In this document: positions 3,780 through 49,626 of the stretch, piece by piece
Layout of the letters: every line of letters begins with the position of its first letter
Position numbering within the stretch: position 1 is the first letter of the stretch
Source of the DNA: Phragmitibacter flavus
GTDB taxonomy: Bacteria; Verrucomicrobiota; Verrucomicrobiia; Verrucomicrobiales; Verrucomicrobiaceae
Reading direction: 5' to 3'
Assembly: GCF_005780165.1 (NCBI RefSeq)
Contig: NZ_VAUV01000003.1
Location: forward strand, 62,001 to 126,000
DNA: 64,000 nt
Position numbers and translations under genes: made by a program
The notes under the pieces: generated by a model
Database searches by the model: none
Told to the model about the DNA's origin: nothing
The model's input: only the letters and a program-made list of their open reading frames with translations

Positions 3780-4131
3780 TCGATAGCTATGCGGTAACTG
3801 TTGGCTTGGCTGCACCTTCACGTCAGCCCTGACTGGCTGCATCCCACCTGTAGATTTCCTGAGCGATCTCTCCTCCTCGCAAGATTGAGATCGATGGGGA
3901 TGTTCAGCGCATGCTTAGCGCGTCCAGATTAATCCTTAATCAAAGTTAATGGTATAATTACCAAAGGCATCTTTTCACAGAAATAAAAACTTTGCCTTGA
4001 AAAAAACCTTCTGGTTCGCTTGTATGGCCCTCTCTCCAAGGTTCATTCTTTCTCTCCGGTCTATCTGCCCACCCCCAACAATTCACCCGCCATTCAATCA
4101 ATGTGCGGAACCTCCTGCCCCTTCCTCATCC
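3780..4131. other. Intergenic region between two giant repeat genes
   Basis: This 352-base gap holds an extended -10 promoter (annotated separately) and no convincing gene. A weak stem (CAGCC/GGCTG near 3826-3841) lacks a T-tract, so I do not call a terminator. The second half is in frame with the downstream gene back to a TTG at 3997, so part of it could be translated if that start were used. Confidence 0.5.
3950..3958 (+). promoter_or_regulatory. Extended -10 promoter for the 5,305-residue repeat protein
   Basis: TGGTATAAT is a perfect extended -10 (TGn-TATAAT) for a sigma-70 type factor. The -35 region is poor (TTAATC about 18 bases upstream), as often seen with extended -10 promoters. 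A transcript would begin near 3965, leaving about 167 bases of leader before the preferred ATG at 4132, or about 32 bases before the alternative TTG at 3997. Confidence 0.5.
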
Positions 4132-32711: not shown

Positions 32712-35700
32712 TCAAACGCCAGCAGCAACTTTCCGACGGCGGCGACGCATCAGCAATCCAGCCAATCCTGCACAAAGCAGCAATGCGCGACTTGGTTCAG
32801 GAATGACGGCATATCCACTGGTAATCAGAAGAATACCGTTGCTTTCCAATTTCTGGAGATCCCAAAGCAATCCTTCCGAGAGCTGCGGAAGATCGAAGCT
32901 GCCCGTCATTCCACCTGAGTAGAGACGTGCCGATCCAAATTCCAAAATCCCGGAGTAATTCAAATCGCCGATCGATGCCATGGTCCAGTCAACCAAGTCA
33001 AATACCTGACCCGCAACAAAGGTCCCAGCATTTCCATTCAGCCTGAAGACCGTGCTGCTGTCGACCTCAAACGAGCCAGAAATGGCCAACAGATCGTGAT
33101 CTCTCCGACTGGTGCTGGTCGCCAGGCCTTCCCATGTCGCGGTCGTCGTATTCACATAATTGTTGTAATCTTGAATGGCTGAAGGGGCCAGTATGGTGAA
33201 GTCGCGGTAGATCGACAAAGTAGCGTCAGGCGCAGCATTGGAAGCTTGGTTGGCCTGCATGCTGAAGGTCCCGCCCTTGGCATCCAGATTCCCCACCACT
33301 GCCAGCGTTCCGATGCCACTCGTGGTGCCATCCGTGTAATCACCGGGTTCAATCACCCCACGAACCACGTGTGTGGTGACATTTGCCACCCCCTGGATCG
33401 TTCCCGTTCCACCGATGCGACCGCCAGAGTTCACCGTAGTGCCCCTCTGCCCAACACCGCCCATTCCCGTATCACCCACCGCACGCGTCGACGCCGAACC
33501 ACCCCGACCCACTTGAAGACGTCCATTGTCGACCACTGTTGAACCGGTGTATTCATTGTCCTGGGTCAGCACCGCCGTGGCCGCACCATCCTTGATCAAG
33601 TTGAGCCTTCTATCCCGGAAGCCCGTTCCATCTCCACTGCCGCCGTCCCCAGCTTGGGTGTTGTTCACGTTGGTAATGTAATGAGCATCAGTGGTGCCAT
33701 TGCGGAACTGGACATCCCAATCTTCGTTGTCTCTCTGGGTAACACGGAGAGTGCCCTCGCCTTTGTCTGACGAATTCTCAACGATAATCTGCTGCCTCCC
33801 TGTGTTGGCTCCGGTGCCTGCGGCAACGCCAGCGACGTCAACCATCAAGTTTCCGATGGTAACATTCATGCCGCCAATCTGGAAGATGCTGTTGCTGGTC
33901 ATGATCACATCCGTCGCTGCTGTGATCGGAGTGCCGGTCCCACCCAATCTAACATGATGGGTCTTGTCGAGGTCTGCATTTGCTGCAGCACCATTGCCGA
34001 TGATCAGATCACTGTTCCACTGGGAATTGTTCGCGCCGTTGATCTCGAAATACACCCTCAAACGCTTGTTCAATGCCTGCTCAACAACGTCACCGTTGTA
34101 AAGAATCTCCGTGATAAGGTCATTCCCGTTTGTGGCAATGATGTTTCCGTTCAGAGCAATCACTTGATCCCGACCAATTAGTGGAACCGTGGTTCCAACT
34201 GCGTTATGACCAATCCCCAAGTTCGCCACATCATCATAATAGCTCACAATCAAGTCATCATTCAATGTGATGGAACCGTCATAATTGTATTGATCCCAGT
34301 TCATCCCTGAGTTGGCCAACACTTCGTGATTCCGGGCTCCAATCTTTTTCGTTTGCTGGCCGGCTGCTCCTACCGCCTCCTGGTTGATCACCAAATTTTG
34401 AACCACATTGTAATGGAGTGGCAGCTCAGCCGTATGGACCACGGTGACCGGCCCACTGATCACCGTGTTCGCTGGAAAGTTCCCCGTCACGTTGAAGGTG
34501 GTGGCATTTGGCACCTGAGCAATGCGGTAGTTGGTTCCATTGATGCTGATCAACATGCCTGGATAGAGCCCGGTGGTATCGCCCTTCAAAACATTGATCT
34601 GATTTCCTGATGCGGTGCTGGAAGCTGCCACTTCTTCAATCATCACCGTGCGAGCCTGACGACTGCTGAGGAACGCCTCGGCAGTTGCTGAAGGTGCCGT
34701 GCCGACCGCATCACCCAAGGTCATCGTCGTTCCGGTGCCGAACGGATTGCCTTGCGAAATACCCACGATGCGACCCGCATTGACGTTCCAGTTGCCTTTG
34801 AACTCGGTGTTGTTTTCCCACAGTTCGAGAGTCCCCGTGCCCACTTTGGTGAGTGCGCCCTGTCCTGCAGTGGCCCCTTCACTGGTCATCATGCCCGCCT
34901 CGCTGTTGAAGCGAAGAACCCCCGTGCCAACCACGTCAACAAAACTGTCCTTACGAACTCGAATCATCCCTTGCAACGAACCACCAGTATGCGCAGCCGT
35001 GGTGCCGAGTGTGCCCCCATCCAAGGTTATCCACTCGCCAGTGCCGTTCTGGAATTTCTTCCCAACAATGTCAGCTGTGGTGTTCCCCGTGATCTGGAAT
35101 CGCAGTTGAGCGCCCGCATCGACAAAGGTGCCGTCAATGTAGGAAAAGCTCGATCCCAGCGTTCCCGCCAAATTGGCTTCCTCATTGTCGGCAGCACGCT
35201 TGGCAACAGGATTGCTGTTGGCCTGGTTGGCAATCGGATCTCCGATGTTCACCTGCAGAGTTCCAGCGGTCACTTCGGTCCGTCCACTGTAAGTGTTCAG
35301 CTTGTTGGTGATCACCAACGTGCCAAGACCTTCCTTGGTCAGGTCACCCACACCAAGGTTGCTTTTCCGCACAATACCACCAGCGAAAGTAGGCGCATGC
35401 ACCTCGGCAGCAATCAGGTTGTTGATGGTGAAAGTGGTCGACGCTTTCACAATATCGATGAAAGCACCATCACCACCGATGGTAATCCCACGGAACGCAT
35501 TCAACGTGATGTTGTTGGCAGCAGCCTCAATGAGCGTCGTTCCGTCCAGTTGCGTCATGTCACCAATGCGCAAGCGACCACCAGTGAAGTAGAAGTTGTC
35601 TGAATCAAATGAACCAGGATTGGCCCCAAGTTTGTTGGGATCACTTACCCAAAGAGTGCCGCCATTGAAGAAGGTGCTGCCCGTGTAGCCATAGCCTGGG

Positions 35701-38700
35701 CCACTGGCAGTAGCGCGAACCATCCGCGTCCATCCGGTTCCGCTGTGCACCAGGTTCAATCTCACGCCAGGAGCGTAGGGATTGTCCACAATATTGGTAT
35801 CAAGAGTGAAGATGCCGCCACCAGCACTTTGATCGACGAAGTTTGGAGCATCGGCGTAGTTGTGGATGATCAAATCATTGGTCCGCACCAGAGCCTTGGT
35901 GATGTCAGGATCGAAGTAAAACGTCTCGAGTGCCGAACTGATCGCGCCCCCTTGGATGGTCTTGTGGGTGTTTCCCACCGTGGCCGAGATCAAGATGGCC
36001 CCACCAAGTGCTCCTGCAGAGCCCCTGGCTTCAAAACCTTCGGTGCGCAGCGTCATGATGCTGCCGTCCGCAATTTTCATCACGTTATTCGGATCCACCC
36101 TGGTTCCGCCGTTGCCGATGAAATCATCACCGTTTTGGTTGTCATTGTCCTGATTGAACAGAATCGCGCGAAGGTCAATGACCGTAGCCCCCGGCTCAGG
36201 GGCGATAGTTCCGTAAAAACCCGACCCAGGACTGCCAAAGAAATCCTCTTCAGGCCCCTCCGCCAGATAACCTAGCTTCCAAGGATAGAGAAGCTCGGGA
36301 TCTGCAATCGAATCATTCACAAAATCCAGGTTGTTTCCAATCGTGAACAACCCTTCCTCCGCTGCCGCAGAAATGCCCAATGCATCGCTGGGCGAATTGG
36401 CTCTTGTCACATAGGCGAAATCGACCACCTTCCCGTAAAACGCGGAACTCGGGTCTCCGTCCACATAGGTGGCCCAAGGAAGGATCACCGAGCCCGTATA
36501 GATGTCCGGGACCTCCAAAGTGATGACCGCTGAGCCCCCAGCCGCAAGGTCACGCCAGAACGACATCGTCGACCCCGCATAGCGAACTGGCAACATCGTG
36601 ATATTGTTGATCAGGTTGGAGGGAGGTCCAAGGCTCAACGTCGTCGTCGATACTCCTGCGCTTGAGACCCGCACCTGCGAATCACCCGCACGCATGATCA
36701 TCAGCCCTCGCAGCTGTTCCACTGCGTTCACGGTAGCGTTGCCAACCAAATGGATATCACCACCCGCCAGCGTCAGCGGTGCCTCATGGTTGTCACCGCT
36801 GGTAATCTTGCGACCCGAATTGACCGAGTAATCAAGAATCAGTGTGCCACCATGAAGGTTTACGCCCCCATCCAGCTCTCCACTCAACCCGACGGCCCCA
36901 GTAAGACGCACATCGCCACGACCGACTTTGGTAACCGCACCCACTTCGTTTTCCAATCCAAATCCACCATCGTCCAGGAGGCGAAGGCGCAATTCAAGTT
37001 CCCCGCCCTCAACAGAATACAGCCTTGCATCAGCATACCGCTGGGTTGTCGTGCTATTGGGGATCGAATCATTAAAAATGATGTTGGTAGGGTTGCCGGT
37101 GACTGCCTTGTTCAGAACGATCTGATTGTTCTCCGCATCAATGCGCAGAATGTAAGTGCTGTTGGCAACGCCGGTTCCAGTCAAGACCATTCCAGGCCGG
37201 AGATTGTCGATATCAAAACCCGGTGAGAACGCACCATCCAGGGTAATAACATTCGTCTGAGTGCCGCCCAAAGATGTAGCACTCGCAAGGTTGAAGGACT
37301 GAAGCGAGCTAAAGCTCAGGTTGGTGTTCTGGGTGACGCTCACCGCCTGGCTAACGGTGATCGAATTCGCACCAATGGCGGTGATGAACGTCCCGGCAGG
37401 CACCCCTGCCCCCTCAACCAGCATGCCGATTGCGAGGTTGGAGAACGCGGAGCCTTCGTCAAAGCCGCCACCTTGACCAAATGAGATCACTGTTCCGTTT
37501 TGGGGAGGAAGTGGGGGGGGGGCTGGAGGATCAGGCTCGCCAGGATCACCGGGCAACACAGGCGGATTCGCATAGTTGAAGCTAAAGCTTCCACCGTAAG
37601 CGATGTCAGCGGTAGGGTTCATATCCAACGAGCCATAACCATTACCGATGACCACTTTGCCAACACCCTCGTTGGCCAGAATTCCGTAAGAGGTGGCCGA
37701 ATAACCGTTGTTTCCGTCCGCCCAGGAAATGTTGTTGACATTGTAAACCGTCGGTGTCGCGAAAGGATCCGCATTGTTGTTGGTCATCGAAAACACGGCC
37801 ACCTGATTGACAAAGTCATTGTCGTTGTCACGCAGCCTCATCGTCATGTTGATCACGCCTCCCTGTGCCGTAGGATTGCTGAGGATTCCGGTGCCGTAGT
37901 CACCTTGCAGGCGGAAGAACCCGCTGCGGAGGTCAAGACTGCCCGTCAAATTGGTCGCGTCCTGAACATTCACGTGGAAATCCATGATGGGCGAGGAACG
38001 CCCGGCATCACCACTGCTGCCTCTCACCATGATGTTGAGTTTCTCATACTCATAGGTTGCCGCAGCTGTATCATTGCCGACTTTCTTGTCGGCAAGAGAT
38101 CCACTGATGGTGACAATGCCATCGTTCATCTGGTCGCCAATGAGCGCCAGCACCCGTCCGGAGCCACCGTTGAACGTCGCTGTAATGGGGGTTTCGCTTT
38201 GATCGTTGACGATGTCTCCATTGATTGTCAGCATTGCAGAATTGCGTCTGGTGCGCAGATAACTGGTAATGTTCTGACCTCCTTGAGTTCCGCTTCCGAC
38301 GAAAACGTCGCCATTGAGCACGTTGTTCTGATCAAATGCACTGAGGCGTGCGTCGAACTCCAGAATCACGTCTTTCCGTTGGGTTGAATCGCTCTGGCTG
38401 CCGACAATGACGCCGTTACCAAGCACCAGGGTATCTCCGTCATAGCCACTGGTCACAAGGCGAATCTCATTACCCACACCATTGAGGCCCAATGCATTGC
38501 TGTTGAATGCCCGGATGCCACCCTGTGTGACGTAAGTCTCTCCTGAATAAGTATTGTTTCCCCACAAATCCAGGTGGCCGCCTCCAGACTTGGTCAGGCC
38601 ATGAGTGGCATGGTTGCCAACAATGCTGGATTGAATGATGGTGGCACCCTGCCCACGAATAACGGCCTCGCGATTGCCAAAATCCAGATAACCACCATAC

Positions 38701-41700
38701 ATCGATGTGCCCCAATCAATAAGGTTCAACATCCCTGCGCCAACATGTCCTTCCGGATTGTAGCCGATGGCACTCGCCCCGTCGCCGATCTTCAAAACCT
38801 TATCGTCCCGAATCACCGTTCTTGTGGCACCATGCATGCGCAAGCTGTTGTAGGCAAGATTCGCATTGATCCGTGCATTATTGAAGTCATGGCGCGCCAC
38901 ATCATTCATGGAAGTCATGACATTGGAGGTGTTGACATCCTGAACACTCGTCAAACGGGTATACTCAGAAAGTTGCAGTGGTCTGATGTAATGCACTCCT
39001 GCCACCGTCTGCACCGTCATAAACTCACGGGTCTGGTTGGCATAGTGACCACCAAACGCGCCCATTAGAATGTTAATGTCCGCTGAACCTGTCGCGCCCG
39101 CACCTCCGATTAGAAACGATGTAGGCACATTGGTAACCGTTACCTGGGAAAGGGCCTGGTCAGGAGAAAGGTAATTCACAAATCCATTGGAATTGTAACC
39201 TCCGGAAAATCCCCGGTTATTCGTCGAGTCGCCATTGTTTTCGACAATGGAAACCATGCCTCCATTTTGCCAAGTATAACTATCGAAATTGATTCTTACC
39301 CGGTTGTTAACACCCTGATCATGCTGGATACGAATAATGTTGTGGCCTCCTTCAGAAACGAATGCTCCGACATTTTCGAGAATATTGGTCCCCAAATCAT
39401 TGTTGTTGGTCACCGTAAACGTGCCGTTTCGCAGGATCATTTGAGCACTGTCGTTGACTCTGTTGCTATTAGCCCCTCCGCCGGCCACGCTGTTGTTGAG
39501 AAACAAGGTCGAGTTGGTGACACGAACTGCTGAAGTGCCGGACAATGCACCATTGGCACCACTCAGCGTCACCGTTCCCCGTGTTACCGCCGTCGTCCCG
39601 GTGAAGGTGTTGTTCCCTTGGAGAGTTTGGGTGCCTCCGCCTGATTTCACAAAACTCACCATGCCGCCACCTGCGCTGGTGGGTGAACCATCGCGAATCA
39701 CCCCCCGAAAGGTGCCCGAGGTATCGCTACCTTCACCGACGATGACCGTGGCGGCTTGCGCATTGCTGTTGCCGACGAAGCCCCCGATGGAATCAGTGTC
39801 TTGGAGAACACCAAACCCTTCTGTGAATCCATTCAAGTCCAAGAACCCCGTAGAATTGACCGTGACGGCGGCGCTTCTGAAAATTTGGTCATTGTAATTC
39901 GACCACTTCACGGATGGCAGCGCAAAGCTTCCCCCGAGTTTCACGGTTTCGATGGCTGCGTCTGAATCTCCAATGATCAACACCGATCCAATGGCATGGA
40001 CGTAGGCATTGCTCACCTTGGCCAGTTCAAGCGTGCCTTCCTGCACCTCTACACGAGATCCGCCATTATCCTGAATTCCCGACAGGGTCAAAGTATTTGA
40101 CCCCACCTTGATGACCCGAGAATTGCCACCGGAGCCGCCAAAATCAAGTCGCCCATCAAACACATCATTGACGGCGCCGTAGTTACCAACCGTCAATGTC
40201 GCGTTTCCAGATTCAGACCTGATGGTTCCATACTGGGTCACCTGCATGGCCACGCCCGGAGACGTGACTGATGCCGTGGCGGCAACATCCAACAAGGCAG
40301 TATTCCCGTTCACGCTGATGATGCGGGCACCTGGGGGAATCCCAGGTCCGGTCACATAGGAGCCAGTCGCAAGTCCCGTCTGGCCCGCGCTGAACCAGAT
40401 GAAGGGACTACCCTCCGTGGTTATGACCGATCCAATGGTGTTTTGCGTGGTGTTCGAGCTGCTGTTGAGGGAATTGAAAGTAAAGTCCTGAATGGTGCCG
40501 GCATTGTCCGTGATGTTGACAAACGCCCGCTCTTCCAACACCAGGTTCAACGAAGGATCAAACAACACCTGACCGCCTGCGGTGCCCTGTGACGAGGCTC
40601 CGCGAAGGAATTCGACGGTTGAACCTGCGGTTCCCAAACTGCTTGAACCAAAGGTCAGAGTGCCTGGTCGGTAGGTTTGCAGCTGTGCACCGCTGGCGAC
40701 GGTGACATTGGTTTCCAGCCGAACAGAGGTTCCGTTGATGATCTCAGCGATTCGCACCCCTTTGGGGATTCCAACGCCTGTGATCGTATCGCCCACGTTA
40801 AAATTTGCTGAACTGCTAACGGAAATGATGTTGGAATTGTTAGCAGGAGCAGAAGCGGTCAACCCCGAGTTCACGCCTTCGGCAAACATCAGAGGAACGC
40901 CTGATTGGGTGAAGCCAGCTGCAACAGGGTTGCTTAGAGTGACTTGCCCGGTCCCGCTGTTATAAGCCGTGATCACAGTATTGTCTGCGATTCCCGGGCC
41001 ATAAACCCGCATGCCTGCGTAGAGAGAACCGCCAGCAATCCCGCTGGCAGTGAAGGTATTTCCGCCCGCTGTAAGCGTTCCTGCATTGGCCGTGACAGCT
41101 GCACCTCCCAAGACCGTCGTGGTCCCGGCTGCGTTGCCAAACTGGAGTCTCAGAGTGCCATTGCCCTTGTTCAGCAAATTTCCGTAAAGCGTTGTATTCG
41201 ATATTCCACCGTCACGGCCAATGTTGACCGTTCCTCCTGTTTGCAGTATTGATCCTGCAATAGCTGTCCGAGTGGTTCCTGTCGTGCCACCAATGTTGGT
41301 AGTCGCTCCACGAAATTCGAGCGAATTAGACCCGATCCCACTGCCATGAGCGAAGTAATTGTAGCCGCCAGCAAAATTCAATGTAGAGCCTCCTTGAGTC
41401 GTCGCCGTTCCAAGGTATCGATTGTAGGCGCCATCAAAGTTGGTAGTGCCGTTCGCATGAAGATAGTTCGCCCCTGCGTTAAGAAGAGTGTTTCCCGATA
41501 CAGTCAAAGTGCCGCCACCGTTCTTGGTGACCGTTTCTGCATCCGGTTGAACTCCATTTCCATTCATCGTGAGTCCACCAGAAAGAATCAGTGTTCCTCC
41601 GGCAACATCGAGAATCAAACCATCATTGATGATCACCTGAGTGCCTACAGTGTCGGTGCCACTGCCGTTCTTGCGCAACAGCGCTTCCGATGCACTCGTA

Positions 41701-42011
41701 TTATTGAAGGTGATGGCGAAAGTGCCCCCGCTGGATTGAATCAAGTAACTTGAGGTTCCACTCGAATCTCCGAGCGTCCATTGATCAAGGTTAATGTTAC
41801 CGGTCAGGTTGACCGTAATGTTGTTCTGGATATCAACGTTCATGTTGGCAATCGACGTGATTCCGTTCGGAACTGATCCATTCCAGTTGCCTGCCGCCAA
41901 CCAATCGTATGGGTCGGTTCCGGTCGTTTTGTTCCAGGTTCCATTTTGTCCAAAAGCTTGCGCAGCCAAAAGAAGACTGATGAACGAGAAGAGAAAGCGG
42001 AGCGTTTTCAT
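32712..42011 (-). CDS. Cassette protein E: giant (3,099 aa) autotransporter-associated repeat protein with PEP-CTERM tag
   Basis: I chose ATG 42011, where MKTLRFLFSFISLLLAAQAFG forms a clean signal peptide. The mature protein is a Gly/Asn/Thr-rich predicted beta-solenoid with at least five clear passenger repeats, such as FVKSGGGTQTLQGNNTFTG and LTKSGGGHLDLWGNNTYSG. It also has about six copies of a 40-residue module with core G-x-x-V-x-G-x-G-I-P-x-G. A proline-rich linker near residue 1490 is encoded over a ten-base poly-C tract. The C-terminus reads IPEPSR, a hydrophobic helix, RRRRRK and VAAGV, a PEP-CTERM tag with an unusual short tail. The gene lies 109 bases downstream of four prepilin-like genes on the same strand and looks like the cargo or client of that set. 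Codon use is less C-biased than in the other two giants. Confidence 0.87.
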   Translation of the reverse strand: MKTLRFLFSFISLLLAAQAFGQNGTWNKTTGTDPYDWLAAGNWNGSVPNGITSIANMNVDIQNNITVNLTGNINLDQWTLGDSSGTSSYLIQSSGGTFAITFNNTSASEALLRKNGSGTDTVGTQVIINDGLILDVAGGTLILSGGLTMNGNGVQPDAETVTKNGGGTLTVSGNTLLNAGANYLHANGTTNFDGAYNRYLGTATTQGGSTLNFAGGYNYFAHGSGIGSNSLEFRGATTNIGGTTGTTRTAIAGSILQTGGTVNIGRDGGISNTTLYGNLLNKGNGTLRLQFGNAAGTTTVLGGAAVTANAGTLTAGGNTFTASGIAGGSLYAGMRVYGPGIADNTVITAYNSGTGQVTLSNPVAAGFTQSGVPLMFAEGVNSGLTASAPANNSNIISVSSSANFNVGDTITGVGIPKGVRIAEIINGTSVRLETNVTVASGAQLQTYRPGTLTFGSSSLGTAGSTVEFLRGASSQGTAGGQVLFDPSLNLVLEERAFVNITDNAGTIQDFTFNSLNSSSNTTQNTIGSVITTEGSPFIWFSAGQTGLATGSYVTGPGIPPGARIISVNGNTALLDVAATASVTSPGVAMQVTQYGTIRSESGNATLTVGNYGAVNDVFDGRLDFGGSGGNSRVIKVGSNTLTLSGIQDNGGSRVEVQEGTLELAKVSNAYVHAIGSVLIIGDSDAAIETVKLGGSFALPSVKWSNYNDQIFRSAAVTVNSTGFLDLNGFTEGFGVLQDTDSIGGFVGNSNAQAATVIVGEGSDTSGTFRGVIRDGSPTSAGGGMVSFVKSGGGTQTLQGNNTFTGTTAVTRGTVTLSGANGALSGTSAVRVTNSTLFLNNSVAGGGANSNRVNDSAQMILRNGTFTVTNNNDLGTNILENVGAFVSEGGHNIIRIQHDQGVNNRVRINFDSYTWQNGGMVSIVENNGDSTNNRGFSGGYNSNGFVNYLSPDQALSQVTVTNVPTSFLIGGAGATGSADINILMGAFGGHYANQTREFMTVQTVAGVHYIRPLQLSEYTRLTSVQDVNTSNVMTSMNDVARHDFNNARINANLAYNSLRMHGATRTVIRDDKVLKIGDGASAIGYNPEGHVGAGMLNLIDWGTSMYGGYLDFGNREAVIRGQGATIIQSSIVGNHATHGLTKSGGGHLDLWGNNTYSGETYVTQGGIRAFNSNALGLNGVGNEIRLVTSGYDGDTLVLGNGVIVGSQSDSTQRKDVILEFDARLSAFDQNNVLNGDVFVGSGTQGGQNITSYLRTRRNSAMLTINGDIVNDQSETPITATFNGGSGRVLALIGDQMNDGIVTISGSLADKKVGNDTAAATYEYEKLNIMVRGSSGDAGRSSPIMDFHVNVQDATNLTGSLDLRSGFFRLQGDYGTGILSNPTAQGGVINMTMRLRDNDNDFVNQVAVFSMTNNNADPFATPTVYNVNNISWADGNNGYSATSYGILANEGVGKVVIGNGYGSLDMNPTADIAYGGSFSFNYANPPVLPGDPGEPDPPAPPPLPPQNGTVISFGQGGGFDEGSAFSNLAIGMLVEGAGVPAGTFITAIGANSITVSQAVSVTQNTNLSFSSLQSFNLASATSLGGTQTNVITLDGAFSPGFDIDNLRPGMVLTGTGVANSTYILRIDAENNQIVLNKAVTGNPTNIIFNDSIPNSTTTQRYADARLYSVEGGELELRLRLLDDGGFGLENEVGAVTKVGRGDVRLTGAVGLSGELDGGVNLHGGTLILDYSVNSGRKITSGDNHEAPLTLAGGDIHLVGNATVNAVEQLRGLMIMRAGDSQVRVSSAGVSTTTLSLGPPSNLINNITMLPVRYAGSTMSFWRDLAAGGSAVITLEVPDIYTGSVILPWATYVDGDPSSAFYGKVVDFAYVTRANSPSDALGISAAAEEGLFTIGNNLDFVNDSIADPELLYPWKLGYLAEGPEEDFFGSPGSGFYGTIAPEPGATVIDLRAILFNQDNDNQNGDDFIGNGGTRVDPNNVMKIADGSIMTLRTEGFEARGSAGALGGAILISATVGNTHKTIQGGAISSALETFYFDPDITKALVRTNDLIIHNYADAPNFVDQSAGGGIFTLDTNIVDNPYAPGVRLNLVHSGTGWTRMVRATASGPGYGYTGSTFFNGGTLWVSDPNKLGANPGSFDSDNFYFTGGRLRIGDMTQLDGTTLIEAAANNITLNAFRGITIGGDGAFIDIVKASTTFTINNLIAAEVHAPTFAGGIVRKSNLGVGDLTKEGLGTLVITNKLNTYSGRTEVTAGTLQVNIGDPIANQANSNPVAKRAADNEEANLAGTLGSSFSYIDGTFVDAGAQLRFQITGNTTADIVGKKFQNGTGEWITLDGGTLGTTAAHTGGSLQGMIRVRKDSFVDVVGTGVLRFNSEAGMMTSEGATAGQGALTKVGTGTLELWENNTEFKGNWNVNAGRIVGISQGNPFGTGTTMTLGDAVGTAPSATAEAFLSSRQARTVMIEEVAASSTASGNQINVLKGDTTGLYPGMLISINGTNYRIAQVPNATTFNVTGNFPANTVISGPVTVVHTAELPLHYNVVQNLVINQEAVGAAGQQTKKIGARNHEVLANSGMNWDQYNYDGSITLNDDLIVSYYDDVANLGIGHNAVGTTVPLIGRDQVIALNGNIIATNGNDLITEILYNGDVVEQALNKRLRVYFEINGANNSQWNSDLIIGNGAAANADLDKTHHVRLGGTGTPITAATDVIMTSNSIFQIGGMNVTIGNLMVDVAGVAAGTGANTGRQQIIVENSSDKGEGTLRVTQRDNEDWDVQFRNGTTDAHYITNVNNTQAGDGGSGDGTGFRDRRLNLIKDGAATAVLTQDNEYTGSTVVDNGRLQVGRGGSASTRAVGDTGMGGVGQRGTTVNSGGRIGGTGTIQGVANVTTHVVRGVIEPGDYTDGTTSGIGTLAVVGNLDAKGGTFSMQANQASNAAPDATLSIYRDFTILAPSAIQDYNNYVNTTTATWEGLATSTSRRDHDLLAISGSFEVDSSTVFRLNGNAGTFVAGQVFDLVDWTMASIGDLNYSGILEFGSARLYSGGMTGSFDLPQLSEGLLWDLQKLESNGILLITSGYAVIPEPSRALLLCAGLAGLLMRRRRRKVAAGV
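37513..37522 (-). repeat. Poly-C(10) tract inside the cassette E coding sequence
   Basis: Ten consecutive G on the plus strand (C on the coding strand) encode part of a proline-rich linker (A-P-P-P-L-P-P). Homopolymers of this length are prone to slipped-strand errors. Gain or loss of a base here would stop translation at about the middle of the 3,099-residue protein. Confidence 0.8.
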
Positions 42012-42075
42012 TATATTAAAAGAGATTATCCCCAATCCTGATCAGACAATCAAGATTCCGTTGTGCCCGGACAAA

Positions 42076-42104
42076 ATTACAAGGGGTGTATTGATAAAAT
42101 ACAA
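42076..42104 (-). promoter_or_regulatory. Possible internal promoter for cassette gene E
   Basis: In the 109-base gap upstream of E, the minus strand shows TTGTAT (42104-42099), a 17-base spacer and TGTAAT (42081-42076, 5/6 match). The same -10 hexamer occurs in the promoter upstream of gene A. The -35 is weak, so this may only supplement read-through from the A promoter. Confidence 0.35.
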
Positions 42105-42120
42105 AAGTAAAAAAAGAAGA

Positions 42121-42897
42121 TTACGGACGGTAACTGGTGATCCGGCCGGTGGAGGGGTCAACCTGGACACAATAGAAGTTTTTCACTTCGTCTGGAGTCA
42201 GCCCTTCCTCTTCGTCGGAAGCAACCACCAAGGTGACAAACCATTTGTTCGGAGGGGCTGGATTCAAGTTGGTGCCCTCGGGTCGGAAGATAAAGGATTT
42301 GAACGAACTGCCGGGCCGGAAAGTGTAGTCTGACAAGCCCGATGCATTGGACACTTTGGTGCCGACTGTAGAATTGCCATCTGCAAGATTGGCCAGAAAA
42401 GTCGACATTTCGTTGTTCTCGCTCAGGACCAAGTCTTGTGACAAGTTCAAAACCTCGCCTAATACCAATGCCATCGGAGCGGTCAAAGGTTTGCCTTGAT
42501 TGGCTGGATTTGGATCAGGGTTCGGAGCACCCTGTTCGAAATGCCGTAGAAGCAAGACAGATCGAAACCGCGGATCTGCGCCGGGATCGAATTCATCATT
42601 GTTGTATTTGTAAAAGCGCACCTCCACGGTGCAACCTTCTGAAGTTGCAATTTGTTGTGCATTCGACAGCATGCCCACCAACTGGCCACCAGACGATGTC
42701 AATCTTGTTGCCATGATCGCCGAATAAAAGGACGGGGTCACAATGGCCATCAACAAGGCGATGATCACAATGACCACCAACATTTCCACGAGAGTGAAGC
42801 CACGTCGGAATCTCGCCACAAACGAAGAAGCGGGAATGCCACCGAGAATGGCTTGCTGGCAATGTAGGATTGGGGAATGAAGTGGGGTATCGTTCAC
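42121..42897 (-). CDS. Cassette protein D: GspH/FimT-like prepilin (Verru_Chthon cassette D type)
   Basis: The 258-residue product carries a class-III prepilin N-terminus: a leader of about 29 residues ending FRRG, then the cut site G|FTLVEM with Glu at +5, and a long hydrophobic helix (LVVIVIIALLMAIVTPSFYSA). This pattern resembles the minor pseudopilin GspH or FimT. I chose GTG 42897 because it begins one base after the stop of gene C, and the in-frame extension further upstream would overlap C by about 200 bases. The globular part ends with FYCVQVDPSTGRITSYRP. It is the last of four prepilin-like genes (A-B-C-D). It probably inserts in the inner membrane, is processed by a prepilin peptidase encoded elsewhere, and joins a pseudopilus tip. 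Confidence 0.85.
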   Translation of the reverse strand: MNDTPLHSPILHCQQAILGGIPASSFVARFRRGFTLVEMLVVIVIIALLMAIVTPSFYSAIMATRLTSSGGQLVGMLSNAQQIATSEGCTVEVRFYKYNNDEFDPGADPRFRSVLLLRHFEQGAPNPDPNPANQGKPLTAPMALVLGEVLNLSQDLVLSENNEMSTFLANLADGNSTVGTKVSNASGLSDYTFRPGSSFKSFIFRPEGTNLNPAPPNKWFVTLVVASDEEEGLTPDEVKNFYCVQVDPSTGRITSYRP

Positions 42898-42898
42898 G

Positions 42899-43945
42899 TT
42901 AGCTGCTCCATTTAGAATTGCGCATCGACACGGTGGCCGAAAAAATGCGAAAGTTGACTTTGGCGTCCACAAGAGCCTGCTCGAGAGCATCAAGATCGGC
43001 ACGGAATTCGGTGTCGGATGCAGCGTTGAAGCCGGTGTAAGTGAATGGTTTGGCCGAACCAAACTTGTCGGCCAGACGTTGGGCCGACCCCTCATCAATG
43101 ACAACCATCACAATCTCAATCTCGGGCGGCAGTTCATGAGACTGTGCATCCTGTTCCTCACCCGGTCCCCCCAACTCGGCGGCGCTGTCATAGAAATAGT
43201 TGGGAGCGATGTCCCGCGAATCTTCGGTGCTTCCCACGATGACCGGGCGCTTCGGGGACAACACCAACATCATGACGTTGTCGGCCACCGGCTTGCTCCA
43301 TTCGGTATAGTTGGCATACCAGTCAGCGATTTCTGCTCCGGCCGCTTTGTCATAAATCGTATTCACCTCAGTGGGAGGGGCATACTCCATCAGCCTGAAC
43401 CGATGCTTGGGCGGTATTCTTCCAGCAATGAAAGGTGGCCTGAATGCGATATCGTCGCCGAATTGCACAAAATAGCCACGCCCGTTTAACGCCGTAGGCA
43501 GATTGACATATTCCCCTGAATAGCCCAGAGGGGCTTGAAAAAACACTGCATGCCCAGCAATATCAGGCACTGCTCCCGAAAACACCTGACCCGCCGGACC
43601 GGAAATGAATTGCAGTTCCGAGTAGCGAATGTATTTGAGCGGATTCCGGTTTGCCCCTTCCAGCTCTTCTCCAGCGGCATCGAATGGAGAAAAAGGATTG
43701 GAGGGGTTGTTGAATCGATATCGAAGATAGGGATTTAACGTCGCCTGACCAAGATTGTTTTTGAGCACATCAAATGCGCGCCGAGCTTCGCGGAATTGCG
43801 ACACCTTGGCAGAAGTCTGTGACCATGCACGCTGCACCTCCGAAACAATCGACGCAACCAGTAGCATAAGGATGCTTAGGATTGTCATCGAAACAAGTAA
43901 CTCAACCAAGGTAAATCCCCTGGACGTATGATGGTGTTTGGTCAT
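42899..43945 (-). CDS. Cassette protein C: GspJ/PilW-like prepilin (Verru_Chthon cassette C type)
   Basis: The 348-residue protein starts MTKHHHTSRG|FTLVELLVSM, a short basic leader with a canonical prepilin cleavage site and Glu at +5. The helix TILSILMLLVASIVSEVQRAW follows. Size and N-terminus resemble the minor pseudopilin GspJ or PilW. The C-terminal part includes VNFRIFSATVSMRNSKW, a strand commonly kept at the end of such cassette C proteins as far as I recall. It begins 10 bases after gene B ends, and gene D starts one base after its stop, so the set is tightly coupled. Its substrate partner is unknown. Confidence 0.85.
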   Translation of the reverse strand: MTKHHHTSRGFTLVELLVSMTILSILMLLVASIVSEVQRAWSQTSAKVSQFREARRAFDVLKNNLGQATLNPYLRYRFNNPSNPFSPFDAAGEELEGANRNPLKYIRYSELQFISGPAGQVFSGAVPDIAGHAVFFQAPLGYSGEYVNLPTALNGRGYFVQFGDDIAFRPPFIAGRIPPKHRFRLMEYAPPTEVNTIYDKAAGAEIADWYANYTEWSKPVADNVMMLVLSPKRPVIVGSTEDSRDIAPNYFYDSAAELGGPGEEQDAQSHELPPEIEIVMVVIDEGSAQRLADKFGSAKPFTYTGFNAASDTEFRADLDALEQALVDAKVNFRIFSATVSMRNSKWSS

Positions 43946-43955
43946 GGCAGGTGAA

Positions 43956-44513
43956 TTAGCCTTTCGAGAATTGCCGGGTCAAAACAGCGGGGTAGGTCCG
44001 GTAAGACTGTGGATTGGCGAAGTCAAATGTTGCTTTCGGAGAGATGGCGACATCGACCAATACGGCCTTCATGTTCTCGTTCGCAGAAGCGGCACCCGGC
44101 AAATAGACCTGCGGTGAAACGGCGGGTCGCACTCTTACAACGTAAGCCAATCGATATTGCATGGCTGAAGAACTGCCTCCCACTGAACTGATCGGATTGG
44201 CCTGGTCGTCATAAAACCATCTTTTGTCGATCATTGTTTCCAGATTGCTCCACCGGGCGGACGCCCCCTCCCCGGACTTCGATCCCCAGTCCGACAGCTG
44301 AATCTCCCCAATCACCTGGCTGGCGATTCGGGCAGACGAAGTGGTTTCTCCTGCGCCGCGAACGGAGTCCAACCCTGCCGGGATAATGCCCAGCAAGGTA
44401 ACCAATCCGGTAGCCGCAATCGCAACTGCGATGGCAACCTCCGCGAGGCTAAATCCCTTCGAGCTAAGGCGAAAGGCACTTGTGGCCATCGTTGATAGAG
44501 TCTTCAATTTCAT
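43956..44513 (-). CDS. Cassette protein B: GspI/PilV-like prepilin (Verru_Chthon cassette B type)
   Basis: From ATG 44513 the product has 185 residues. A TTG two codons upstream is possible but unnecessary. The prepilin site is SSKG|FSLAEVAIAV with Glu at +5 and a hydrophobic helix (AIAATGLVTLLGIIPAGLDS). Short length and this N-terminus resemble the minor pseudopilin GspI or PilV. The LGIIPAGLDSVR stretch right after the helix is, to my memory, characteristic of the Verru_Chthon B family (TIGR02598). The gap to gene A is 16 bases and to gene C 10 bases. It probably nucleates the tip complex together with A, C and D, by analogy with type II secretion. Confidence 0.85.
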   Translation of the reverse strand: MKLKTLSTMATSAFRLSSKGFSLAEVAIAVAIAATGLVTLLGIIPAGLDSVRGAGETTSSARIASQVIGEIQLSDWGSKSGEGASARWSNLETMIDKRWFYDDQANPISSVGGSSSAMQYRLAYVVRVRPAVSPQVYLPGAASANENMKAVLVDVAISPKATFDFANPQSYRTYPAVLTRQFSKG

Positions 44514-44529
44514 GTTCAAATATTAGGGG

Positions 44530-47500
44530 TTAAGGAGCGAAACGCTTGTTCTCAAGAACGCGGAAGTTGTAGAAATCATCCAGAGGAGGAGGGTTTCCGG
44601 CAGTCGCATAGTCCGGCAGCCGCGGATCTTCTGGATCAATTCGACGCTCAATCAAGGCGGACCCGCGATACTCACTGTTTACGAGGTCGACGTTCGGATT
44701 GAATTCATTGGCTTCACCCGATCGCGCTTTTCGAATGGATTGCGCCCGGTAATGCACTCTGAAAGTATTGCTCTTCGTGGTGATTTTGGCGTAGATATTG
44801 GCGTAGGGTCTTTCTCGGACGTTGTCGCCCGTGAGGGAGCGGGCCTCCCAAAAGAGCCCCATGGACCGGTAGCTGTAGTTGCCTCCAACCATGTTGTCGC
44901 TTCCATCGCTAGCTGGCGGCGTAGCGGCAGCGTTCACCGAAGAAGCGGGGTGTGTTCCCTCAACCTTTTTCGGGACCAAGTGCAACTCTGCGACCTGACT
45001 TGCCGAGCGCAGAAGACCTCTTGCGCCAGCTGGCAATGCCGTAGAGAAGTTAAACCGGTCGTCCAACTGTCCAAGCGTCGATGTGTTTGCAGAAAACGCT
45101 CCGGCCGCCTTCGAATCGATGTCGATATTCCGGTGCCAGAAGCGTTTTTTGGGTGCCGCATGCGTGTAGTAGGCGGTAGTGCTTCGGGCATCCAAATCGC
45201 TCCACTTTGCCTGCTGGTAATACTGGCCATAGCCATTTCCAAAAGCCACATACTGGTTGCCATCCGGCTTGACCTGAATGTTGGTCGCGTTGGCCGTTGG
45301 AAATGCCTGAAGCTCCTCCCCTTTCAGCACCGCATGCATACCAGTCGCCCGTCGGATGTAGGAATTGAAGGGAACCATCTGGTAGTTGATGTTCACCTTT
45401 CCTGCAGTCGAGAACGGTTCGCTGATGGCATAGGGTTCCACCACTGGCATCCAGAACAAATCCATGATGTAATGATCTGCCGGGTTAATTCCTTTGAAAG
45501 GAGTGTGAGCCGTGTTGGTATTGGCCCCACTGCCTCCGTAGTTGGGAGACCCAGGATGACTGGCCGCCGCACCACCACCAGACAGAACAGGTGGAACGTA
45601 AGGTCTAAACAACAGGGTTCTCCACGGATCGCCCGCTTTGACGCCAGTTGAGAGCGAGCCGAACATACCGGGTGAAGACACCATCCGATTTGGAGACATG
45701 AAGGATTCCCCAGACTCTTGACCACGCCACATTTCATCATAGTAGGCAGTCGGTGCACGAACCAGTCCGCCCGCACCGGTGGTGGAAGCCTTGGTGTCCA
45801 TGCCCGTGTTGCCTTCATCAGGCTTGTTGATCCACGCGCCATCACGCAGACTGGGGACGCCATTGTCAAAATCGCCGTAACGTCTCGCAAGGTCCACCAA
45901 CGAAGTCGCTGGCAGGTCCGGTCTTGCTGAACTGCGATAGCGGGCACCATAAACCAATTGGCGGTTGTAATTGATGGTAGAAGGCGCAAGTCCAAAATCA
46001 TTCAGGTCAATCCCAGTTTCATAGTCGGAGACATATCTCATGAAACTGTGAGCATTGTAGACGGGCAAGGTTTCATTGGTTCCATTGATCGAATAACTCT
46101 TCTGCTTGCCGACACCGGGATGAAGTTCCCAATCATCCGCAGGAACGAACTTCTTGGCTGCAATCAGGCGGATATCCCCATGCTTTGGAACCATGCTCAT
46201 GACAACGTCCTGACCAAACGGGCCTTGCACGTTAGGATTAAGGTAGCCACTGCCGCCAGCCCCCCCCGTCCTCGCTGCCGGGCTCCTAAGTGGAGCGCAA
46301 AATTGGCCATACTGGATGGATGAATCGGTAGGGTAGACCGTGCCATTGGCCGTGTGCGCCCAGGTGATGGTGTCAAATCTCGGAATCCCCCGGCGTGCAC
46401 CGTGGCCGCTTCCCTTGGTAAAGAATCGCCCAAGTGTTCTCCCAAGTTCCACCCCGGCCTGCGTGTAGAGGTCGGCTGAGGAGTTGGCTGCTGGTATAAC
46501 CAGGGGCTCTCCGGGATTGGGCAATTGTCCGGTCCAAGGGCTGGCCGGATTGTGCGCCATGCGACCGATCGCTCCACCATAGTGAAATGACCACCAACGT
46601 GGTGCCTCAATGCGCTCTTGAATATTGAGCTGACTGCCAGTGGTCCACTCCTCCCGGGGAGACGAAAGAACGACAAGCTCTGGGGTGGGCAATTGGGCGT
46701 TGGGGAATCGGATCTCGAAAGTTTGCACAATGTTTTCGTCACTCAAGTCGCGCCCTGCATAGACGTTGACCGTTATTGGTCCACCAGTGAACTGCATGGT
46801 ATCCCCGACGATGGTAAAATAGTTGCTGACCAGGTCATAGTTGGAGGCACCATCATAAGTTTTGCCCGAGGATGACACCGATGCGTCATAGCTTGGATCA
46901 TCCGGCATATCTCCCGAACGGATCACATGCCTGTTTTGAGTCAGGGCGGCCGGACCTACGCTGCCGCCAGCCTCACGATTGTGAGTGGTTCCCTGAAACA
47001 GCGATGCAGGTGCCCGCCATGTTCTTTTGGTGGTGAGGCCGGGTGTGTTGAACAACTGCACCGGGAATCCTGCAGTTCCACGGATCTGGAAGCTGGTCAT
47101 GCCAGTAATGGAAATGCTCATGTCTGGAAAAATCCCAGGATAGCCGCTAGCTGGAACAGTCAGCTCAAAACTCAGCATGGCCTGCACCCGCTTGCGACCA
47201 GGCGACAGCGGCAGGTTTCGGGTTAACGTCATGTTCCAGTTCTGGGGTTTGTATCCAGGATGTTTGCTGTAGTGGCGCGGATCATTAACCGGAACGCCGG
47301 CCTGAGTTCCATATTGACTTGGAGCAGGATAAGGAGGGAAATTCGAATACCAACGGTCAATCATGGTGGCATTTGGATTCGCGGCTGGTGGAACTGGTTC
47401 AGGCACCATTTCCGGCTCGGCATGGGCTCCATTTGTAGGCAATCCCCGGTTGGTGATTTTAGTTGCCGTGCGACCTCCGCTGATATCCGCATCTTGCGTG

Positions 47501-49626
47501 CTTTTGGAGCCATCAGCGTTTCGTATGCGCCAACTCCCCTCATCTATGGATCCGTCAGCAGTGCAGATAAAGTGCAGGCCTACTTCGGATATGGTCGGAA
47601 AGCGACCGAACCCTCTGCTGGAGTGTCCTCCAATCGTTGTTTCAATTGGAACCACCTGACCGTGACCCGGCAATGCAGTATAACTGACCTGTTCTCTAAG
47701 GGTTGGCTGCGTAACACCGCCATCAGAGTAGTTCAGGTCGAGATTGTTGCTGGCTCGCGTAGAGGTGTAGGTTTTGGTTTGCGGTAGCAACTGGTCGCGC
47801 CGATCAAGAATCTGCCTCGCTGACAGTCCATTCATCCGATAAGGTGAACCCGGTTCGATCAGCTCATCCTTGCTCGGCGCAAGCGCTCCATCATACAAAT
47901 TGGTGCATCTGATGTAGTCAAAGATTTGGGTGAGGATTTGCGCCGCATCACCATTTCTATATTTATCCGTGAAACTCGCCGCTGCCTGGCCCCCACTCGG
48001 AAAATCCCGGTCCATCAGTCCGTATAGGTAATTCAGCAGTCTTTGGTTGCGAGGTATATCCCTGACATCATTGACGGCGCTTGTTGCGTCGCCTCGACGG
48101 AAGAAATAGCTGTTTTCAGTGCCTCTGGATGACTGGAGAGTCCCACAGAAAGCCACCAGGTTGTCAAATACGGTCCGATATTCGGCGGCATTGCCACGCA
48201 TGGGTCCAATGGTGCGTTCATTCGCCACAGGCCACATGGCTACTCGCGGGGTGCCGAAGATGGTTGTCTCAGGTGCCCGACTGTGCGCCGTCAAGAAGAA
48301 GCGCATACGCTCAAGTGACCTCGCCTCAATGGTATGATCACCAAAAAGCCTGACAGGAGCTCCGGGCGTGGAGTCCTGCGTAAGCCTCTCGGCCCCGGCC
48401 ACCTGCTCAGAGAAAAGCAATTCATCAACAGACGCATACAGGCGCTCGTTGAGGGATTGCGAAACGTCCACCCGATACATTCTAGTCCCATCATATTTGG
48501 GATCACTTAGCGCCCAAAATGGAACGGTGGCACCTTTAGAGCCGCCGCTGTTGATTTTTGGCATGATGTCATAAATCCGCTCCTTGCGATCAAGAATATC
48601 GCTGAGCGCCGTTCCAGTTTTCCCGTATGAATTCATGTCCTTATTCGGAAACAGCACCGTGCTCAGAGCCACCGTGGCCGGATGTCCGGGATAACGTTGA
48701 TACTCGAACCGGGTAGGCTGGTAGACCGCCCACTGATAATCCCTGTCATGATAAGAAATTGGCGGGGCCCAGAAAGTTGGCTCACCAGCCGTGTTGATGT
48801 TAAGTTTGGACGTTTCGTCATCTGTCCAAAATGCGATTCGACCGACGATGGGATTTGTCGCTGTAGCCGTCACTCCACCCGCGCCAACAAATGTGTAGGC
48901 ACCGGTTCCAGTTGCTTCGGTCACATGCCCCAGGGTGCCATCCTTAAGCATGTAAAGCCATTGGACAGGCATTGGCAGTCGGGCATTTACATCCGTCACA
49001 CTGGTCGCATCCACCACCCAATCGACAGTCGTTGTGTTGACTCTGGTTTCGTAGCTGAAGCCTTCAATATTAGAGCTGTCTGGAATACTGGTGCCGGTCG
49101 TCGTTCGCTCACTGCGCACGAATGCCCTCGGGTCAATAATCGGAAACACCACTTCCGCCTCTCCATCAGCATTTCTATCTGGCCGAATGACCGGTTCATT
49201 CAAATCCACCCACTTACCCGGTTTTTGCATCCATGCAGTATCCGGATGATCGGTTGTCATGTTTTGCTCGGAAGCGACCTCCACCATCATGTCGTCGCTG
49301 TATAGCTTGAATCCTTTCAAGAAAGCACCGTTGTTGCTGTATTTCCTAATCGCACCCGGTTGGGATGCCCAAATAGTCGCATCCCCGGCTCCAACCTCTT
49401 GCCGCGAACCCTCCCAAATCTGACCCATTGCAACGTTGATGGCGGTGTCGGACAAGTTTTTGGCAAACTCACCATCCGCATACTTTACTGAAGATCGCCG
49501 CTCCGTGTCCGAGATTGAGAGGATGGCCACTGCTAGCACCGTCAGGATGACCAACATGGAAATCACAGTCACTAGCGCAATACCACGCCGCCGACGTTTT
49601 GGCTTTCCGATTTCAGGTGTGTTCAT
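44530..49626 (-). CDS. Cassette protein A: very large GspK/PilX-like protein (Verru_Chthon cassette A type)
   Basis: The 1,698-residue protein begins MNTPEIGKPKRRRRG|IALVTVISMLVILTV. This is a basic leader, a glycine and a hydrophobic helix in which position +5 is Thr rather than Glu. That exception is the hallmark of GspK/PilX minor pseudopilins. The following DTERRSSVKYADGEFAKNLSDTAIN resembles the PilX/GspK stalk. The remaining roughly 1,600 residues form a large ectodomain without obvious repeats or a second membrane segment, several times bigger than GspK (about 320). It contains an eight-G run at 46260-46267 on the plus-strand coordinates. As first gene of A-B-C-D-E it follows a good promoter and probably defines the operon. 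A cargo-binding or tip-adhesin role is inference. Confidence 0.85.
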   Translation of the reverse strand: MNTPEIGKPKRRRRGIALVTVISMLVILTVLAVAILSISDTERRSSVKYADGEFAKNLSDTAINVAMGQIWEGSRQEVGAGDATIWASQPGAIRKYSNNGAFLKGFKLYSDDMMVEVASEQNMTTDHPDTAWMQKPGKWVDLNEPVIRPDRNADGEAEVVFPIIDPRAFVRSERTTTGTSIPDSSNIEGFSYETRVNTTTVDWVVDATSVTDVNARLPMPVQWLYMLKDGTLGHVTEATGTGAYTFVGAGGVTATATNPIVGRIAFWTDDETSKLNINTAGEPTFWAPPISYHDRDYQWAVYQPTRFEYQRYPGHPATVALSTVLFPNKDMNSYGKTGTALSDILDRKERIYDIMPKINSGGSKGATVPFWALSDPKYDGTRMYRVDVSQSLNERLYASVDELLFSEQVAGAERLTQDSTPGAPVRLFGDHTIEARSLERMRFFLTAHSRAPETTIFGTPRVAMWPVANERTIGPMRGNAAEYRTVFDNLVAFCGTLQSSRGTENSYFFRRGDATSAVNDVRDIPRNQRLLNYLYGLMDRDFPSGGQAAASFTDKYRNGDAAQILTQIFDYIRCTNLYDGALAPSKDELIEPGSPYRMNGLSARQILDRRDQLLPQTKTYTSTRASNNLDLNYSDGGVTQPTLREQVSYTALPGHGQVVPIETTIGGHSSRGFGRFPTISEVGLHFICTADGSIDEGSWRIRNADGSKSTQDADISGGRTATKITNRGLPTNGAHAEPEMVPEPVPPAANPNATMIDRWYSNFPPYPAPSQYGTQAGVPVNDPRHYSKHPGYKPQNWNMTLTRNLPLSPGRKRVQAMLSFELTVPASGYPGIFPDMSISITGMTSFQIRGTAGFPVQLFNTPGLTTKRTWRAPASLFQGTTHNREAGGSVGPAALTQNRHVIRSGDMPDDPSYDASVSSSGKTYDGASNYDLVSNYFTIVGDTMQFTGGPITVNVYAGRDLSDENIVQTFEIRFPNAQLPTPELVVLSSPREEWTTGSQLNIQERIEAPRWWSFHYGGAIGRMAHNPASPWTGQLPNPGEPLVIPAANSSADLYTQAGVELGRTLGRFFTKGSGHGARRGIPRFDTITWAHTANGTVYPTDSSIQYGQFCAPLRSPAARTGGAGGSGYLNPNVQGPFGQDVVMSMVPKHGDIRLIAAKKFVPADDWELHPGVGKQKSYSINGTNETLPVYNAHSFMRYVSDYETGIDLNDFGLAPSTINYNRQLVYGARYRSSARPDLPATSLVDLARRYGDFDNGVPSLRDGAWINKPDEGNTGMDTKASTTGAGGLVRAPTAYYDEMWRGQESGESFMSPNRMVSSPGMFGSLSTGVKAGDPWRTLLFRPYVPPVLSGGGAAASHPGSPNYGGSGANTNTAHTPFKGINPADHYIMDLFWMPVVEPYAISEPFSTAGKVNINYQMVPFNSYIRRATGMHAVLKGEELQAFPTANATNIQVKPDGNQYVAFGNGYGQYYQQAKWSDLDARSTTAYYTHAAPKKRFWHRNIDIDSKAAGAFSANTSTLGQLDDRFNFSTALPAGARGLLRSASQVAELHLVPKKVEGTHPASSVNAAATPPASDGSDNMVGGNYSYRSMGLFWEARSLTGDNVRERPYANIYAKITTKSNTFRVHYRAQSIRKARSGEANEFNPNVDLVNSEYRGSALIERRIDPEDPRLPDYATAGNPPPLDDFYNFRVLENKRFAP

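Follow-up and report, generated by a model that had tools for sequence, protein, structure and literature searches.

Four consecutive genes (A–D) for prepilin-type proteins and a following gene (E) for a giant secreted repeat protein lie together on one strand of the Phragmitibacter flavus genome, and our analysis suggests that A–D, which carry the family names of the Verru_Chthon cassette, provide an extra minor-pseudopilin tip in the style of the type II secretion system (T2SS) to a machine encoded elsewhere, with a very large insert in A binding E for carriage through the secretin. We give this explanation about an even chance of being right.

Gene layout and family membership of the cassette

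The window referred to here is the whole 64,000-nucleotide stretch that was analysed, and the genes of interest are listed in Table 1 with their positions in it. On re-reading the sequence, the coordinates and frames of the five genes, the spacings between them (16 bases for A–B, 10 for B–C, 1 for C–D and 109 for D–E) and the prepilin-type leaders of A–D were all as claimed in the initial annotation. The leaders are of type III (A, RRRRG/IALVTV; B, KG/FSLAE; C and D, RG/FTLVE). We found no terminator-like site on the coding strand of the D–E gap and one weak promoter-like match, compared with 0.4 expected by chance, and E may be co-transcribed with A–D.

Table 1. Positions in the window of the cassette genes, gene E and selected protein segments.
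Feature	Position	Strand	Description
Gene A	44530..49626	(-)	Verru_Chthon cassette protein A, giant GspK-like pseudopilin, 1,698 aa
Gene B	43956..44513	(-)	Cassette protein B, GspI-like pseudopilin, 185 aa
Gene C	42899..43945	(-)	Cassette protein C, GspJ-like pseudopilin, 348 aa
Gene D	42121..42897	(-)	Cassette protein D, GspH-like pseudopilin, 258 aa, GTG start
Gene E	32712..42011	(-)	Giant secreted repeat protein, 3,099 aa; signal-peptide-like N-terminus, PATR/TIGR02601 repeats, PEP-CTERM
PEP-CTERM segment of E (VIPEPSRALLLCAGLAGLLMRRRRRKVAAGV)	32712..32807, approximate, including stop codon	(-)	TIGR02595, 23.8 bits (cut-off 16), residues 3070-3093
N-terminal part of A pseudopilin core	49270..49584, approximate	(-)	Mature helix and first strands, residues 15 to ~119; predicted by alignment with the L102 A model (helix 13-76, strands 83-105)
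C-terminal part of A pseudopilin core	44533..44829, approximate	(-)	Residues ~1600-1698; predicted from the alignment of window A Y1608 with L102 Y1095 (L102 strands 1108-1188)

Each of the four proteins scored over the curated NCBIfam cut-off for its Verru_Chthon family, with the genes in tandem and in the order A-B-C-D: 978 bits for A with TIGR02600 (cut-off 332), 94.5 bits for B with TIGR02598 (cut-off 51), 329 bits for C with TIGR02599 (cut-off 257) and 120 bits for D with TIGR02596 (cut-off 70). The HMM search thereby bore out the four accessions named in the initial annotation. Cassette protein B is found in 63 of the 68 genomes of the GTDB family to which the bacterium belongs, with 1 to 24 matches in each, and a phylum-wide search of 388 Verrucomicrobiota genomes found A over cut-off in only seven. 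We note that matches to A at E<=0.001 occur in 208 of the 388 genomes, nearly all of them to the N-terminus only and mostly in ORFs of ~700-1,400 aa, and by sequence these appear to be a wider class of giant K-like proteins.

The four families are already named in TIGRFAMs and may have been described elsewhere. In the literature searched, which omits most subscription journals, we found no paper using the Verru_Chthon names or the TIGR accessions. Haft et al. 2006 (PMC1569441) describe PEP-CTERM from Verrucomicrobium spinosum; in a term search of that paper neither autotransporters nor cassettes came up, nor did TIGR02600 or TIGR02601.

Relationship of A–D to GspK, GspI, GspJ and GspH

In the T2SS model library, A matched GspK best, B matched XpsI (the counterpart of GspI), C matched GspJ and D matched GspH; every one of these scores fell well short of the equivalog cut-off, and the matches were confined to the N-terminal part of each protein. 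A scored 21.1 bits with GspK NF037980 over residues 14-89 (cut-off 130), B scored 20.3 bits with XpsI and 15.1 bits with gspI (cut-off 44.35), C scored 27.8 bits with gspJ (cut-off 64.85) and D scored 42.5 bits with gspH (cut-off 80). The GspH, I, J and K models outscored the pilus models for A–D, with PilV close behind for B, and profile comparison with the G-H-I-J-K proteins of the same genome gave A-K, B-I, C-J and D-H as the first pairings. No signal was seen for any of A–D in the ectodomain-only profile comparison, in which the N-terminal helix was removed. The absence of Glu+5 from A alone, which had been proposed as a K-like feature, held across homologues, with the residue present in 0 of 90 A proteins, 69 of 70 B, 78 of 78 C and 70 of 70 D proteins (217 of 218 for B–D).

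Structural models were used to compare folds. The AF2 model of window C (pLDDT 90.5) matched the solved structures of EpsJ, XcpW and GspJ as well as the Thermus pilin TTHA1219 at Z 10.6-11.9 (the next row scored 4.2), and chains of the EpsJ/XcpW/GspJ families also ranked first in Foldseek. The fold of A was examined using the orthologue from locus L102, which at 1,190 aa is short enough for modelling and is 37% identical to window A. Its AF2 model (pLDDT 82.1, pTM 0.86) had a sole match above background, to GspK 3ci0_K (Z 8.1, rmsd 2.5 over 107 residues; next row 4.6), and GspK was absent from the best 50 matches of Foldseek alone. We regard this as a moderate fold match. It spans model residues 46..1190 and GspK residues 29 to 315, and the match end points together with the secondary structure suggest that the two ends of A make up a GspK-like core, with the ~1,000 (L102) to 1,500 (window) residues between them probably forming an insert; the pilin sheet of GspK likewise accommodates an inserted domain (PMC8179133). 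Searches of PDB sequences returned only chance hits for the A profile, and only N-terminal pilin helices and chance hits for the C profile. The identification of A–D with K, I, J and H made in the initial annotation is supported for K and J by the predicted folds, and for I and H by N-terminal sequence only.

Protein E is an autotransporter-like repeat protein with a PEP-CTERM

E has TIGR02601 repeats in four stretches (71 bits), which Pfam names PATR, the passenger-associated transport repeat of autotransporters, with a score over the Pfam cut-off; PATR has been described for type Va autotransporter passengers (PMC8111173). It was the only domain found in E by the Pfam search, which did not detect a translocator barrel, nor was there a PilY1/PilC domain match at E values up to 0.1. 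The C-terminal end of E has the PEP motif, hydrophobic helix and basic cluster of PEP-CTERM proteins, and three exosortase matches were found in the genome. Over most of its length, window E shows homology to the E proteins encoded downstream of the cassette in L027 and L028, and in parts to several of the giants encoded upstream, and E homologues follow the same cassette in L027, L028 and L031.

At least 97 PEP-CTERM sites occur across the genome, and the majority are distant from any cassette. The window itself includes two further tandem genes for giant PATR/TIGR02601 proteins with PEP-CTERM ends (3-3779 and 3997-20049, both on the (+) strand). The first protein has at least 1,258 aa, its frame being cut by the edge of the window, and the second has 5,350 aa; the window contains no cassette close to this pair.

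Linkage of E to the cassette

We compared the neighbourhoods of 92 A proteins placed on a tree, and took as E-type those genes whose products had the repeats, a PEP-CTERM or, in the case of L032, an alternative C-terminal domain. An adjacent E gene, upstream or downstream, was found in 31 of the 35 scorable members of the clade that includes window A and in 8 of 49 outside it, and this trait changed 11 times on the tree, whereas 1,000 shuffles averaged 28 changes and never gave fewer than 21. The gene order is E-A-B-C-D in most relatives within the clade, with E downstream in the window, L027, L028 and L031, and on both sides in L030; no E gene was found in the stretch examined for clade members L039, L056, L057 and L060. 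In a second A clade (L014 type), the best hits in other genomes include eight (L143-L148, L162 and L163) with a PEP-CTERM ORF before A, which ends close before or slightly overlaps the longest possible A ORF, as is also the case for the more distant L155, and at other loci of this type (e.g. L149-L152, L165-L167 and L171) no PEP-CTERM ORF was found before A in the stretch examined. Within the P. flavus genome, E is an immediate same-strand neighbour of, or fused to, 7 of 15 cassettes, for which random placement gives P ~2e-6 to 2e-5 assuming independence and an estimated gene number, and some cassettes have two or three E genes. Many BCDA or BCAD cassettes of other lineages have no E nearby, and many E-type genes have no cassette nearby.

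We conclude that the linkage of E is real but lineage-bound, occurring in two A clades and in both gene orders. As four members of the window A clade and most cassettes outside it are without an adjacent E, this protein is not needed for the cassette to persist. The initial annotation had asked whether A–D co-occur with a single E-like gene; the genetic linkage stands, given the frequency in the window A clade and the second clade, and a single E per cassette as a rule does not. A search of A for an insert specific to the E-linked clade returned short stretches only (the longest at ~residues 729-756), none of which was obviously a docking domain.

Two readings of the E–A association were rejected. 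The PEP-CTERM is not what links E and A, as the giants upstream of A in L038, L047, L048, L049, L061 and L062 (plus a cut ORF in L032) do not have one. We observed that these giants share another C-terminal domain instead (roughly GxGYFLLPxxP ... SGxVxFE, varying by branch), and the two that were searched had no NCBIfam match. The second concerned the in-frame E–A fusion at L014 of the P. flavus genome (12958-19182, (-) strand), where a PEP-CTERM repeat protein continues into A in an ORF of 2,074 aa with the stop missing. We do not take this as direct proof that E and A touch: in relatives a stop codon lies between the two genes, A retains a start of its own preceded by a G-rich site, and the sequence may contain a base error. 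In the relative L143 (genome G216) a single in-frame TGA separates E and A, which points to stop loss or a base error at L014. A separate observation is that many relatives of the window cassette among L034-L068 have a conserved gene of ~485 aa after D, often plus one of ~506-521 aa.

Cassettes and secretion machines in the genome

The TIGR02600 search found ~15 A genes in the genome, and a divergent cassette at L137 brings the total to ~16; at L018 and L021, A was found and B–D were not detected. The L137 cassette (4337-19220, (+) strand) is a single run of B-like, C-like, two E-type, A-like and D-like genes, in which the E-type proteins are 1,065 aa with repeats and 980 aa with a PEP-CTERM, and the A-like protein is 1,179 aa. 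No ATPase, GspG or secretin match of the genome lies inside any cassette or in the neighbourhood of the window cassette, and with ATPase, platform, major pseudopilin and secretin not encoded with the tip, the cassette is not itself a T2SS.

Elsewhere, the genome has five GspE/PilB-type ATPases, four PilT-like ATPases, six secretins and three GspG genes over cut-off. Three loci carry their own smaller pseudopilins. C9 has E-F-G-H-I-J-K-L-M-D in one stretch; C5 has G-H-I-J-K, and roughly 20-35 kb from it lie E-F and a secretin accompanied by L- and M-like genes; C2 has E-F-G-H-I-J with no K found. At these loci L, M, H, I and J were assigned from weak matches and from gene order. The GspK-like proteins of this genome are 317 aa and window A is approximately five times that size. 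These three loci led us to reject the possibility that the cassettes are the only H-I-J-K sets of the genome, and as there are ~16 cassettes without machine genes beside loci that have pseudopilins of their own, the cassettes look like additional tips and not spare machines. We also note secretin genes beside GspL/PilN-like and GspM-like genes without adjacent pseudopilins (L126 and L131). The type IV pilus genes of the genome include a pilB-like pair, PilT-like ATPases and Amuc_1098-family secretins, one of which sits a few kb from cassette L024.

A proposed role for the cassette and alternative explanations

With ATPase, platform, secretin and major pseudopilin all missing from the cassette, the machine that it serves must be encoded at another locus, and E, which is like an autotransporter passenger without the barrel, needs a different route across the outer membrane. 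Substrate recognition by the T2SS depends critically on its tip, where XcpX (GspK) occupies the topmost position (PMC6211770), and the H-I-J-K sets of T2SS and type IV pili are interchangeable for piliation according to a review (PMC10191384). In the arrangement we propose, B and C would form the tip core, D would join this to the major pseudopilin, and A would cap the tip with the insert that interrupts its core facing outward. The most likely function of the insert would be to bind E in the periplasm, by which A may recruit or present it, and the growing pseudopilus could then carry E to or through the secretin toward the surface. There, an exosortase would handle the PEP-CTERM end when present, and E might be released, anchored after processing, or kept on the filament. 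More tentatively, one or a few shared machines might take ~sixteen interchangeable tips, with each giant K-like cap selecting its own giant cargo and the cassette acting as an adaptor for cargo selection in place of the autotransporter barrel, though we consider this generalisation rather doubtful.

A different possibility is that E remains on the filament as a tip protein, in the manner of PilY1, with A–D priming a short pilus on the type IV pilus machine to present E outside and nothing being released. M. xanthus has three clusters of four minor pilins plus a large PilY1 using one machine, with a PilX that has no Glu5 (PMC7541494), and P. flavus has type IV pilus genes, including the secretin near L024. 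However, E has no PilY1/PilC match in Pfam, the GspH, I, J and K models are preferred over pilus models for A–D (with PilV close for B), and a PEP-CTERM is expected to process or anchor E, not keep it on a filament; we think this unlikely, if still a serious contender. We hold it to be somewhat less probable again that the A insert is a functional adhesin or binding module and E merely a co-regulated surface protein using another export route. The adjacency of E and A has outlived strong divergence and a change in gene order, and the second A clade also has E directly before A, in one case in frame, which argues against such independence, whereas the wide distribution of pilins with grafted domains (PMC8179133), the many cassettes without an adjacent E, the A genes without detected B–D at L018 and L021, and the high conservation of the A insert with or without E count in its favour.

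That the adjacency of E is an accident, or neighbourhood inheritance in genomes rich in PEP-CTERM proteins, seems very improbable to us given the number of cassettes in this genome with an immediate same-strand or fused E (under the assumptions noted above for the P value) and the varying position of E while adjacency stays, even if the abundance of PEP-CTERM sites here, the lineage-bound linkage and the paralogy of the cassettes, which makes these events not independent, would favour it. Returning to the tip proposal, cargo choice by the T2SS is a long-standing question, and a lineage that multiplies the tip and not the machine, with the tip gene beside one large putative cargo gene, would offer natural tip–cargo pairs that are swappable and testable. 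The proposal would likewise be a starting hypothesis for four families of genes which have a name only, and for how giant PEP-CTERM repeat proteins are exported.

Comparison with known systems

E shares PATR repeats with the passengers of type Va autotransporters and differs from these in having no translocator barrel, ending instead in a PEP-CTERM, or in another C-terminal domain in the related giants. The cassette resembles the GspK-I-J-H tip of the T2SS in having four prepilin-type proteins, one of which is without Glu+5, with a predicted GspJ fold in C and a predicted GspK core in A, but it differs in the size of window A compared with GspK-like proteins, in the machine genes missing from the cassette and in scores below the equivalog cut-offs. 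In the M. xanthus minor pilin/PilY1 clusters there are likewise several sets of four pilins, each with one large non-pilin protein, and a common machine; PilX resembles GspK in having no Glu5, and PilY1 is suggested by the authors to be analogous to T2SS substrates (PMC7541494); in contrast, E is an autotransporter-type repeat protein with a PEP-CTERM and is no PilY1 homologue, and the giant pilin here is the K-like one. Modular pilins such as S. sanguinis PilB also have a functional module on a pilin that is likely to be at the tip, whereas the extra sequence of A would lie inside the pilin core as it does in GspK, and A exceeds in length the 860-residue protein that is the most extreme multidomain case in the survey of these proteins (PMC8179133). 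Finally, the Verru_Chthon cassette models seem to carry a name alone, to which the K-I-J-H fold assignment and the linkage to E are added here.
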